From a virus: a stretch of 64,000 nucleotides of DNA. Each line of letters starts with the position of its first letter. Positions within the stretch are counted from its first letter, which is position 1. The position numbers were made by a program, and so were the translations under genes. Shown piece by piece: positions 2,094 through 58,257 of the stretch. The stretch covers positions 62,001-126,000 of IMG/VR virus record IMGVR_UViG_3300022701_000122; one strand, given 5' to 3'. The notes below the pieces were generated by a model that had not been told where the DNA came from, did no database searches, and saw only the letters and a program-made list of their open reading frames with translations.

Positions 2094-3527
2094 ATAGATT
2101 ATCTACTTTTAATCTAGCCACTAGCGATCATATCTAAATAGAATCACATCAGAATCTTAATCGTCGGGGCTATTCCGCTTAACAGAAGATTCTAATAAGA
2201 AAAAATTATGAATATATGGAGAGAGCGGATTTGTTTACTAAGTGATCAAGGACGGAACGGACTAAGATCACTTAGTAAACACTATATAAAAAGATTCTTG
2301 ATTAAGCCGTAGAAGATTCACACGACCGGTACTGATTCCATATGTTAAGTTATTATTTTACATATTAATATACGAAGTATATTCTATATAATTATTATAA
2401 CATATAATAGGTCTTGAAGCGTTTTAGAAACTGCGGTCTGTTTTGCAGTTTCTAAAACCGTTCGAGGGCCGGTTCTCGACCGATAGGGAGTCATCAATAA
2501 TCAAATTGATCTAAGAAGATTATATGTTCTATAAATTGAGCCATGAATGATTAAAACTGGTGATTATTTATTTATGATTATCTAAATTGATACACATTGA
2601 TGCAACATTAACTTATTAGATTAATTATTAAAATAAAATCAAGTTGATTCATATTGATAGTGAATTGATACAACATCTACATCCAACTCTTAATTTCTTA
2701 ATAACTTTCTATTAAGATCAATTTATCTCTTAAATAAGGTTAAATAACAAATTTTATAGTTCTTTAAGATTCTAATCATTTCTCCCTACCACTTCTCTAT
2801 TTATAAAAATCCGAAACACAATGATTCATTATTTCTGTTTTTTGGTAGGTTTTTAACTTTGCAGTTAACCTCTACTTACCCTAATTTGACTAATTTATTT
2901 ATCAATTCAAATGTTTAATATATCAAATATATAAATTTAATATATATCTATTGATAAATCATTTATTCAACTTTAAATTTAATTATTCATATTTTATTAA
3001 TCATTTAAATTTCTTTTATTAATAAGATATAAATTAATTAATTTAGATTTCTTTATCTTTATTTATTTTTCATTTATCAATTATTTTTTGGAATTTTGAA
3101 TCATTCATATATAATTCATGAATATATCAATATATGTCCGTTTCATTACGCCTGGGCTTCATGAAACGAGTAATAATATTTGACCTCAAATAGTTTTTCC
3201 ATTTGAATCTTAAAAGAATCTAATTAGATAAATATAGATTCTTTTTTCTTAGTATCTAAGAAAGAATTAATATTAGATTTTTAAAATCTAATATGAAAGA
3301 TTCTAAAATGTTTTAAATTAATCTATATAGATTCATTCTATAATCTAAGTAGATTAATAATGAACTGTATATGTTGTTAACATGGAATTAGTAGATTGTA
3401 CATGTGACATAATCATATTCTAAGAATATGTCCGAGCAATTTTTGGGTCAAGTCGGTACTTTTAAGAAGATATTTTGAAAATTGGAATAGCTGCTGCTAT
3501 GTGGACAAACGGTAGTCATAATGACCT
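2094..3527 (+). ncRNA. Long non-coding region rich in strong inverted repeats; candidate large structured RNA
   Basis: No credible gene is found on either strand. Perfect or near-perfect hairpins are frequent: 2233-2247 pairs with 2266-2280 (15 bp, 18-nt loop); 2421-2434 with 2445-2458 (14 bp); 2367-2373 with 2377-2383 around GAA; TCGAG 2462-2466 with 2475-2479; 2844-2880 (bulged stem); 3139-3146 with 3161-3168 (8 bp); 3245-3252 with 3256-3263; 3270-3281 with 3283-3294; 3414-3420 with 3424-3430. A long-range pairing GAATCT/TAATC (2153-2162) with GATTA...AGATTC (from 2300) would enclose the first hairpin. The part 2100-2500 is less AT-rich than the rest. The strand is assumed from neighbours. 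Alternatives are a replication origin (2880-3120 is almost pure A/T) or several small RNAs. Confidence 0.5.
3503..3519 (+). promoter_or_regulatory. GGACAAA motif (first of three near 3.5 kb)
   Basis: GGACAAAC followed by GGTAGTCAT. This is the weakest of the three matches here to the window-wide motif, because the downstream AAAT block is missing. It lies at the right end of the structured non-coding region. Confidence 0.3.
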
Positions 3528-3551
3528 ATGTATTGTTTATGGGTTGGAGGA

Positions 3552-3568
3552 GGACAAAATTTAAACAT
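3552..3568 (+). promoter_or_regulatory. GGACAAA motif (second of three near 3.5 kb)
   Basis: GGACAAAATTTAAACAT matches the window-wide pattern GGACAAA-N4-AA. It lies about 196 nt before the gene starting at 3748. It could be a promoter, but a purine-rich GGAGGAGG run overlaps it. Confidence 0.4.
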
Positions 3569-10646: not shown

Positions 10647-10805
10647 ATGGGTAATGAACAATTTGATAGTCATGTTACGTTGCAAAAATTGATAAAAGAT
10701 ATAAGGGAAATACATGAAGAATTGTTAAAAATAAATGATCAAGTTAAAAAATTATATAAAGAAATTGAGATATCAGCCAATAGGAGGACAGTTGATGAAA
10801 TTTAG
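10647..10805 (+). CDS. Small coiled-coil-like protein, 52 residues
   Basis: Short frame from ATG 10647 (behind GAAGGATATTAAA) to a TAG at 10803-10805, overlapping the start of the thymidylate synthase gene by 11 bases. The translation has a heptad-like helix (LQKLIKDIREIHEELLKIN...VKKLYKEI). It contains the ribosome binding site AGGAGG of the following gene. Function is unknown. Confidence 0.55.
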   Translation: MGNEQFDSHVTLQKLIKDIREIHEELLKINDQVKKLYKEIEISANRRTVDEI

Positions 10806-14281: not shown

Positions 14282-17200
14282 ATGCCTGTATTTAGGAAAA
14301 TATATTTAAAAACAAAAGTTTCCGGTGAAGTAGTTGAAACTGATCTTAAAAAACGAGAATCTGCGTTTGATGACGAAACAAAGTCTTGGTATGTAAAAGA
14401 TTATCAAGGCGTCATGCATAAATTTTCCAGTATAGATGATGGTGTTATATCTGCCCATAGAACTTGGTCTTCTGACAAAATATTATCAGAATTAAATGAA
14501 TACAGTCTTCCGAATAGATGGTTGGAAGGAACAACTGTCCCGCCATCTACATTGGGGTCTGAAGGTAATCATTATATAAATACAATAACAAAAGATGTTT
14601 ATAAGAAAAAAACTATTCCAATAGGTGGAGTTGATAGTTTCACCACATTAATGATTCATAGTGATTCGGTTGATGGGAATCAAGAATTTGAAGATTCAAG
14701 TCAAAGTGATCATGATATTACATTTTTTGGAAGTGTTGAACATAGTAATGATCAAAAAGTATTTGGTGATACAAGTATAAAATTTAATGGTGATCAAGCT
14801 ATATCAGGATTAAAAATTGAACATTCTGATGATTTCTCATTTGATGAATATGAGTTCTCAATAGATTTCAGAATAAGATTCGAACAATTAAATAATACTC
14901 AAGTATTATTTTCCAGAAAGAAAGAGAATGTATCTGATTTTTGGAAATTAGAATATGATAATGTAAATCATCATTTAGAATTTACACATGATACAGTTGA
15001 TACTGGAAGTATTGGTATTGTTGGAAGTATAATATTTGAAGTTGATACTTGGTATCATATTGCAATTGTTGGTGAGATTGATGAAATTAGTGGTGATAGA
15101 GTATTTAGATTAATTGTTGATGGTGTTCTTATTTCATCTTCAATATATGACACTTTTGATTATTTTTATGGTCCATTATATATTGGATCTTATGATGAAA
15201 ATACAAGTGATTCATTCGTTGGATGGATGGATGAAATAAGAATATCATCTGGAATTGCAAGAGATTTTATAGATGATGTTCCAACTGAAGTTTATACTGT
15301 ACCAGATGGATCTACTACATTAGATTCATGGTGGTTACTTGGTAATATTAGAGATAATAATCGATTTACGAGTCTTGTCGATTTACCAAATGATTATACC
15401 AATCAATCGGGTAAAATTCTCATAGTAAATGAAACAGAAGATGGATTAAGATTTGAAAGTTTTAACCCGAATGGCGTATACGAATTTGTTGATCTTACGG
15501 ATACTCCTTCCACATACGCTGGTCAAGCAAATAGACTCGTAGCTGTTGCTGGTGATGAATCTGGTCTTGAATTTGTTGATCGATCTTCTTCTGGTATAAA
15601 ATTTATTGAATTATCTGATGTTCCAACCAGTTATGCTCAATCAAGATATAAAGTACCAAGAGTAAACTATAATCAAAATGGTCTTGAATTTGTTGATGAT
15701 ATTCGTAATCTTATAGATTTATCTGATGTTAATGCTTCTAATTATACTGGTGATCGCCATAAAATATTAAGAGTTAATTCAAGTGAGTCTGGTGTTGAAT
15801 TTGCTGAACCTACTGTAATGCAACAGTTGTTAATTATAGACAGCAGGGCAGACCTTCCAGCTACAGCAGATGTTGGTACACTTGTCGTTGCCAGTGGTCC
15901 AACTGGTGATGGTAACATGTATGTATTTATTGGATGGTATACGAGAGATGGTTATCAAACACCAACGTATGAAAATAAATGGTTAGTAAAATCTGGAAAT
16001 AGATATGAAGCAACATCTGTATTTCCAAGTACATCAACATATATTATTCCTATTGGAACAAGATTATTTAGTGAAGACGATGGTACATGGTTTATATATA
16101 CTGGTTCTGAATGGATTGATACGAAAGAAGATTTAGCTCCAGCTACTGCCACAAATCTTGGTGGAATAAAAGTAGGTGATAGATTAACTGTTGAACAAGA
16201 TGGAACATTAAATGCTGATTTACAATCATCATATAATTTTGATTATAATTATAAATATAAATTAGATAATATACAAGCTAATGCAAATAATTATGTTCAT
16301 CCATCTACTCACCCTGCTGTAATCATCGAAGAAGATACAACACATAGATTTGTAACCGATGCTCAAATATTAGCATGGAATGCTGCTTCGGGTGAATTTG
16401 TTCCAGCTACAGAGACAACACTTGGTGTTATTAAAGTAGGAGATCGATTATCAGTTGAAGTTGATGGAACATTAAATGCTGATTTACAATCTGATGAGAA
16501 TTTTACAACTGCTCTGAAAAATAAATTAGAAGGAATGGCTCCTTCTGGTTTATCTCCAGCTACAATTGCTGATCTTGGTGGAATTATTGTTGGTGAAAGA
16601 TTATCAGTTGAAGTTGATGGAACATTAAGTGCAAATGTTCAATCAGATAATAATTTCACAGATGCATTAAAAAATAAATTGGATGGTGTTGATGATAGTG
16701 CCAATTATTATGTACACCCATCAACCCATTCAGCATCCATGATAACAACATCGACATCAAGAAGATTTGTTACAGATGCACAGATAGCGTTATGGACTGC
16801 TGGTGGAAGTGTTGAATGGGATAATATAACGAGTAAACCATCTGTTTTTCCGCCAGATACACATTATCATGATTTTGTTGATTTAACTGATTCTCCAGCA
16901 AATTATACTGGTCAAGCTGGAAAAATATTACAAGTTAATTCTGGAGAAGATGGATTAGAATTTATAGATAATCCAGGTTCAGTTGATGATGGTGATTGGT
17001 CAAGTGCAGATAGTCCTCCCGGTAATTGGTCAGATACACATAATCATGGTGTTACGTTTGATGCAGTTGTATCAACAACTTCTGTGAATTCTACATTTAG
17101 ATATGTAATTCCATCATCTGAGTTATCGACTTCTGGAACATCGATACGACTGAAGTTTCAAAGTATTGAAGGTTATACTTTATATGTATATAAATGCTAT

Positions 17201-52595: not shown

Positions 52596-52646
52596 TTAAC
52601 TATATATATTAAATAATAACATTGTTGGATTTATATGATAATGTTT

Positions 52647-52783
52647 GGTTAAGAGTGTGGAGAACCTTGGTCAGCCCGTGGTGGTCACGGGTGGGTTAAT
52701 TTCAGTTTTCTGGGTCTATTCTCTGGTGGTGGGGAATGGGTCCTTCTCCGACTGAATATCTTCATGCTCTTAACCATTTTTTT
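52647..52783 (+). ncRNA. Compact structured RNA or elaborate terminator
   Basis: GGTTAAGAGTGTG (52647-52659) pairs with CATGCTCTTAACC (52763-52775), 13 bp with two G-U pairs, and is followed at once by seven T. Inside are CCCGTG/CACGGG (52675-52680 with 52686-52691) and ATTCTC with GGGAAT further on, plus GGAGAA/TTCTCC extending the closing helix. The whole element is clearly more G+C-rich than its surroundings. It fits a ~137-nt multi-branched RNA ended by its own U-tract. A plain terminator would not need the internal hairpins. Family unknown. Confidence 0.65.
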
Positions 52784-52825
52784 AACTAATTGTTTCTTTT
52801 TATATAAAGGATCTTTTTTATTTTT

Positions 52826-53092
52826 ATGAATTTTGAAGATATAAAATTAACATTAGAATTGATAAATGTTGTTATTGATGAATCTTGTTGCGAAGAAGTT
52901 AAAAGAGAATCAATAATATTATTATTAACTGATATATATGAATTTATGAAGATCGTTGTAGATAATGATCATCTTGAAGAATCACCAAATGATTATTATA
53001 ATCATTTGCGTTTATTGATTTTATTCAATAAAACATTAGAATCTGAAGAGAAATTAAAGTTATTAACTTTATTTAGAACTATTTCTATATGA
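52826..53092 (+). CDS. Unknown 88-residue helical protein
   Basis: First gene after the structured RNA; the start follows a weak AAAGGATC and T-rich spacer. Two or three helices, acidic (VVIDESCCEEVKRESIILLL). No family is recognised. Its stop lies inside the ribosome binding region of the next gene. Confidence 0.55.
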   Translation: MNFEDIKLTLELINVVIDESCCEEVKRESIILLLTDIYEFMKIVVDNDHLEESPNDYYNHLRLLILFNKTLESEEKLKLLTLFRTISI

Positions 53093-57330: not shown

Positions 57331-58257
57331 ATGATAAATGTAATAAATGTAAATAAGTTTATTCGTGAAGGAAAATTGAAGGGTCCGATAACGAGTCCTC
57401 AAATATTCATGGGTAAATCTTATACACCACATCCAGAAGGGTTACATAGCGAAGAAATATTTGGATTAGACGGTTCACCGGAAAGAAGAAATTCGATGTC
57501 GTGGATTGATTTGAACTGTAATGTAATACATCCAGTATTTTATGATATTGTATCTAAACAAATAGAGAAAAAAATTGTTAAACTAATATCTAATGAAGAA
57601 ATGTTTACTATAAATGAAGAGACAGGTGAACTTGTTCAAGACGAAGAAGGGGAATTAACTGGATTTTCAAGTTTTGTTAAAAATATAGATAAAATAAAAT
57701 TTAGAAGAGCAGAAGAAGGATCAAAAGGTAATAGAAATAAGGTAGTTAGTGTTTTAGAAAAAAATATTAAGAATAATACATTTTTTATAAATAAATTGAT
57801 AGTTATTGCACCAGACTATAGACCAATATTTTATTCAGAATCGGATGATCGACCAACAATCGATGAGTTAAATGATATATATAAAAGTATTATAATATTA
57901 TCTAATCAATTAAAAAGTGTATCTGGACCATTATTTGACATACTTAGCTATAAAATGCAGATGTATATGAAAGAATTGTTTGAATGGGTTAAATCGAAAG
58001 TGAGTAAAAAACACGGTATAATAAGAAGAATGATGCTTGGTAAACGAGTAGATTTTTCTGCTCGATCTGTTATATCACCAAATCCAAATCTTAAACTTGG
58101 TGAAGTTGGAATACCACTTAATACGGCGTGTGGTTTATTTGAACCAAATTTGATATATGGTATAGTAAATTCTCCGTATTCCAAAGATATACCAGATGAA
58201 TTTCATGAAGAAGTTAAATCATTTTTGGGTAAAGAATTACTTCCTGATTTAACGTAA
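57331..58257 (+). CDS. RNA polymerase beta' subunit, N-terminal part (split gene)
   Basis: 308 residues. HSEEIFGLDGSPERR matches the start of beta' (S-x-x-I-F-G near the zipper), and KHGIIRRMMLGKRVDFSARSVISPNPNL then LKLGEVGIPLNTA matches the lid/rudder-switch segment (L-G-K-R-V-D-(Y/F)-S-x-R-S-V-I). The zinc-ribbon between them is shortened. The chain stops soon after this motif, and the conserved segments that follow in cellular beta' continue in the gene at 60847, so the subunit is naturally divided. It would be part of a phage-coded multisubunit RNA polymerase. Confidence 0.93.
   Translation: MINVINVNKFIREGKLKGPITSPQIFMGKSYTPHPEGLHSEEIFGLDGSPERRNSMSWIDLNCNVIHPVFYDIVSKQIEKKIVKLISNEEMFTINEETGELVQDEEGELTGFSSFVKNIDKIKFRRAEEGSKGNRNKVVSVLEKNIKNNTFFINKLIVIAPDYRPIFYSESDDRPTIDELNDIYKSIIILSNQLKSVSGPLFDILSYKMQMYMKELFEWVKSKVSKKHGIIRRMMLGKRVDFSARSVISPNPNLKLGEVGIPLNTACGLFEPNLIYGIVNSPYSKDIPDEFHEEVKSFLGKELLPDLT

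Follow-up and report, generated by a model that had tools for sequence, protein, structure and literature searches.

The DNA between two genes at the end of the baseplate operon of a large phage contains a GC-rich segment that ends in a T-tract. The question raised by this locus is whether the segment merely ends the transcript of the operon, belongs to the leader of the genes that follow, or is the gene of an RNA of its own. The window analysed here (64,000 nucleotides) is part of the IMG/VR virus record IMGVR_UViG_3300022701_000122 (182,757 bases; coordinates in this record carry the prefix G000). A second record, IMGVR_UViG_3300022696_000071, represents the same phage, with two substitutions over 84 kb and none over 33.6 kb; it overlaps the first one in part and adds 83 kb, the RNA locus being outside its coverage. 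From the two records combined, the phage genome is probably about 266 kb long. The phage has a multisubunit-type RNA polymerase, the RpoC-like protein of which (at 57331) has its nearest phage matches, ~31-34% identical, in Listeria LPJP1, Staphylococcus and AR9/PBS1 jumbo phages. The structured segment lies 50 nt past the stop codon of a 98-aa gene, for which PHROG gave a weak virion-structural match, and gp5-like hub and PAAR genes are found upstream. On its other side is an 88-aa gene (52826 to 53092, + strand), the first gene 3' of the structure and a possible cis target. To our knowledge, few phage non-coding RNAs are known for which promoter, fold and terminator have all been predicted, and those with a known function are rarer still.

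The initial annotation, made from the sequence alone, had described a multibranched RNA of 137 nt at 52647-52783, and folding upheld both these coordinates and the anatomy. On the + strand, 52646-52776 is predicted to form a three-way junction closed by a long helix, P1, with seven T directly 3' of it. The minimum free energy of 52647-52790 (+ strand) is -59.2 kcal/mol, compared to a mean of -37.8 for 200 dinucleotide shuffles (z -5.45), none of which folds as well (0/200). The RNA body has a GC content of 0.50 versus 0.29 for the genome, in agreement with the GC-richer composition noted earlier. The closing helix had been reported as 13 bp with two G-U pairs; the first 13 pairs counted from 52647 do hold two G·U, but P1 is longer, with 17 contiguous pairs between its 5' strand (52646-52662) and its 3' strand (52760-52776) and a third G·U at 52660·52762. 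Its mean pair probability is 0.95 across four flanking contexts. By a simple stacking score P1 is tied sixth among the long-range helices listed for the ~266 kb of phage, and by the same score no helix in simulated sequence (3 x 266 kb) equals it, the best one reaching -23.5 compared to -28.5 for P1.

Within the junction, arm 2 (52663 to 52697) consists of an AACCU/GGGUU helix, a 6-nt internal bulge and a 7-bp hairpin with the apical loop GUGGU (52681-52685), and arm 3 (52701 to 52756) of a 7-bp helix, an internal loop and a long G·U-rich hairpin with the apical loop GUGG (52726-52729). In both apical loops GUGG lies inside the sequence UGGUGGU. The minus strand reaches a much poorer energy (-34.8 kcal/mol, z -3.7), the + strand being better by 24 kcal/mol, an asymmetry owed partly to its G- and T-rich composition, and the structure was therefore assigned to a + strand transcript.

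The position between two genes at the end of the baseplate operon had been recognized correctly, whereas a promoter motif of the segment's own had been missed. This motif, TATATATATTAAATAATAA (52601 to 52619, + strand), is of the early, virion-RNA-polymerase type and is repeated in the genome: the ~266 kb of phage contain 24 copies of its 14-base core, compared to 0.9 expected, and 11 copies of the core with a trailing TAAC, compared to 0 expected. Jumbo phages that encode RNA polymerases of their own have AT-rich early promoters, in which a conserved motif of at least 10 nt, centred near -10, lies upstream of the transcription units (PMC7598289), and early promoters of a comparable kind have been described in the AR9 jumbo phage (PMC5312081). 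The motif found here fits this description, and its column conservation ends at positions 17-18, that is at 52618-52619, where the +1 is expected. Since early promoters are centred near -10, a start of the RNA at ~52618, where the conservation ends, is inferred from the motif.

The transcript predicted from this start, 52618-52783, has 166 nt and a folding energy of -65.6 kcal/mol (z -6.24), and is paired from its first base as far as the U-tract. Bases 1-28 form a hairpin (52618 to 52645; 10 bp, 8-nt loop) that begins at the predicted +1 and abuts, without any linker, P1, which begins at base 29. The seven T after the helix, already noted within the annotated segment, form a U7 tract (52777 to 52783), which is a predicted intrinsic terminator and the predicted 3' end. 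Intrinsic terminators are short G+C-rich hairpins with a U-tract at once after them. The U7 tract does follow P1 immediately, but the two strands of the stem are ~130 nt apart, which is unusual for such a terminator and counts against a self-terminating RNA; the scan for simple terminators, which allows loops of at most 8 nt, did not return this element.

The reading that we somewhat favour is a discrete early transcription unit making a self-terminating non-coding RNA. The injected virion RNA polymerase of the phage would start at ~52618 and stop at the U7 tract, yielding a 166-nt RNA with its 5' end sealed in a hairpin that abuts the 17-bp closing helix around the three-way junction. Such a product would be compact, probably nuclease-resistant and already there in the first minutes after infection. 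If the injected polymerase does make it, the RNA would rank with the earliest molecules produced in the infected cell, and would be a direct candidate for an RNA of host takeover. One alternative, an elaborate terminator or stable 3' end left by read-through of the upstream structural-gene operon and serving only to end transcription, would account for the location 50 nt after the 98-aa gene and for the terminal U7; it is nevertheless improbable, as the promoter motif intervenes between that gene and the structure, a three-way junction and a 5' hairpin at +1 are superfluous for a terminator, and the structure far exceeds that of shuffled sequences. The initial annotation had argued for selection on RNA structure beyond termination; that the segment is more than a terminator, one part of this interpretation, is supported by the strand asymmetry, the multibranched fold, the strong early-type promoter motif and another element laid out alike (see below).

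The main rival to an early non-coding RNA is a leader acting in cis, in which the structure would form the 5' UTR of the operon with the 88-aa and 483-aa genes, and P1 with U7, as a conditional terminator or as an mRNA stabiliser, would determine how much transcription from the early promoter continues into that operon. In the only syntenic relative found, G001 (one 275-kb record), the gene order around the RNA is kept, the proteins at the syntenic genes are 42-57% identical, RpoC is 57% identical and an 86-aa ORF takes the position of the 88-aa gene; the searches gave no closer relative that covers the locus. At the syntenic position G001 has the same promoter motif directly before the same genes, followed by a plain 15-bp hairpin without the multibranched RNA. 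The promoter may thus primarily serve the downstream operon, which counts against the non-coding RNA and for a leader. Several other early promoters of the phage with a hairpin between promoter and gene, for instance at 140467 and 149583, also speak for a leader. The G001 leader, however, has no structure in common with the RNA, no competing antiterminator fold is evident (P1 keeps its probability of 0.95 in all contexts), and riboswitch and T-box families gave no match. Considering also the second element described below, which has no protein gene directly behind it, we regard a leader acting in cis as possible, although doubtful. As G001 has the promoter without the multibranched RNA, the latter would have been either gained in this lineage or lost in that of G001.

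The same layout was found elsewhere in the genome. At G000:10061-10215, behind an early promoter at G000:10044, a 5' hairpin at +1 is followed by a multibranched RNA, which an 18-bp helix closes, and by a T-run (z -9.79). This twin is followed by an array of tRNA-like units, and no sequence similarity to the RNA at 52618-52783 was noted, the likeness being one of layout. A further copy of the motif, at G000:161199, opens a cluster (G000:161201-163660) in which a tRNA-Leu framed by an outer helix is followed by more than 1.5 kb of non-coding sequence, folded into domains that long helices (up to 28 bp) close, and then by tRNA-Met and tRNA-Ser. Since the motif precedes the RNAs at these two places, it does open stable-RNA genes in this phage. 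Elsewhere, where a gene clearly follows, the motif mostly lies ~35-90 nt from the start codon; at the RNA locus the next start codon is 208 nt from the predicted +1. That the RNA, its twin and domains of the 161.2-163.7 kb array belong to one set of multibranched, end-sealed non-coding RNAs, made from early promoters and acting in the first minutes of infection as decoys or scaffolds directed at RNA-binding or defence proteins of the host, and hence to a new class of jumbo-phage takeover RNAs, is a speculative proposal that we consider rather unlikely. A layout repeated within one genome provides a defined set for testing.

An early non-coding RNA might act in trans by base pairing or by binding proteins. 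For the former, the UGGUGGU loops could pair with ACCACCA sites in the leaders of early genes, notably those at 16664 and 12267; two such sites lie directly 5' of the 16664 Shine-Dalgarno site, and the naive duplex with the 12267 leader reaches about -26 to -27 kcal/mol. Once opening costs were included, however, the best energies with phage leaders were no better than those of shuffled RNAs, and among 53,182 windows the duplex energy was beaten by 15 for the 12267 site and by hundreds for the 16664 site. Moreover, the 12267 'leader' is actually the 3' end of a tRNA-like unit, and one of the two sites before 16664 is altered by a substitution in IMGVR_UViG_3300022696_000071. Pairing with phage leaders as an antisense RNA, which was not supported when opening costs and shuffled controls were applied to these targets, is accordingly highly improbable. 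As no significant antisense target emerged among the phage leaders, protein binding was taken as the most likely route and serves as our working guess: as a decoy or scaffold, the RNA would bind a protein by its junction or by the apical loops of its two arms, both of which contain GUGG.

A coding role was also considered and rejected. The ORF scan of the + strand gave frames of 25, 36 and 21 aa, none with an evident Shine-Dalgarno site, and in a 59-codon open frame across the RNA, read by eye, the first usual start codon comes only close to the end of the frame. The earlier statement that the RNA is not recognizable as 6S, tmRNA, SRP or RNase P RNA was borne out, as none of the 4227 families of Rfam 15 (these four, pRNA, riboswitches and T-box included) matched at the gathering score or even at E 10, and tRNA and tmRNA searches of the RNA found none. 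Searches of phage records by blastn gave only chance matches (E 9). In viral contigs, the loop-pair pattern was found in 91 stretches, most of them apparently Gly-rich coding sequences, with no similarity longer than 21 nt among the 80 listed. Of the eight stretches with the closing-helix pattern, none was similar. Scans with the flanking genes recovered G001 as the sole relative, and bacterial genomes yielded no homologue of the RNA. Judged from these comparisons, the predicted RNA is new by sequence and of a known kind, the phage-encoded structured non-coding RNAs.

Among known RNAs, the closest precedent in layout appears to be the phiKZ p40 leader RNA, an abundant, folded non-coding RNA of ~180 nt that was found by Grad-seq and derives from the p40 5' UTR, possibly via premature termination (PMC8545117). 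Both phages are jumbo phages with their own multisubunit RNA polymerases, in both a structured RNA, of about the same length, separates a transcript start from the gene that follows, and the order of promoter motif, fold and U7 is that of a 5'UTR-derived phage RNA of this type. The likeness is one of layout, and whereas the phiKZ RNA has two stem-loops and was detected by Northern blot (PMC8545117), the RNA described here is a closed three-way junction and is predicted only.

The phi29-type pRNA shares the three-way junction, the long end-joining helix and the two arms; it differs in that Rfam gave no match even at E 10, and packaging of the phi29 type is not expected in this phage group. The loops of pRNA pair with each other, which is impossible here because both loops are of the same sense. 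T4 RNAs C and D are stable structured phage RNAs of a tRNA cluster, of unknown function, that are processed from the tRNA transcript; they are of similar size, whereas the RNA described here is a single unit with a promoter motif of its own and lies apart from the tRNA clusters. With Y RNA and YrlA (RF02553) it shares closure by pairing of both ends, but it lacks a tRNA-like module and the stem motif ACTnnnAAATCATTACAG. Membership in that family was rejected, as no tRNA and no Rfam match were found and the scan for the ACTnnnAAATCATTACAG motif gave no match near 52600-52800.

That stem motif is common to the at least six units of an array at G000:10272-12240, several of which enclose tRNA-Lys-, tRNA-Phe- or other tRNA-like modules. 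In the unit at 10650-10792 the tRNA-like module is apparently circularly permuted, and the unit weakly matches YrlA (E 0.0035; 26.6 bits compared to a gathering score of 69). From its sequence, the region looks like a phage Y-RNA-like array. It is adjoined by the gene of a 541-aa protein (G000:12267-13892 and L155:5905-7470), in which the N-terminal part is predicted to be helical and the C-terminal part has a MIDAS-like DxSxS (vWA-like) motif, which we take to be as in Ro60. By eye and by this motif only, the protein may be Ro60-like; it had no match in Pfam (TROVE included), NCBIfam, PHROG or PDB, and profile searches gave no support for the likeness. A single-sequence AlphaFold model (pLDDT 35) was set aside. 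A homologue, 31-32% identical, is encoded by the 462-kb uncultured phage LR756500.1 with three similar RNA units nearby, and in both phages an ARPP-1 family gene follows the gene of this protein.

Three other regions drew attention. The window contains ~1.47 kb without a predicted gene (2094-3566), where 2097-2318 and 2333-2493 fold strongly; Rfam gave no match there. A high-GC island at G000:151696-153730 (0.42-0.51 compared to 0.29) combines strong folds with ORFs of 182 and 302 aa and an early promoter at 152483. Finally, the leader at G000:16631-16650, ACACCACCAACCACACCACCA, lies immediately 5' of a Shine-Dalgarno site, and the substitution at its position 16647 is one of only two between the two phage records over 84 kb.
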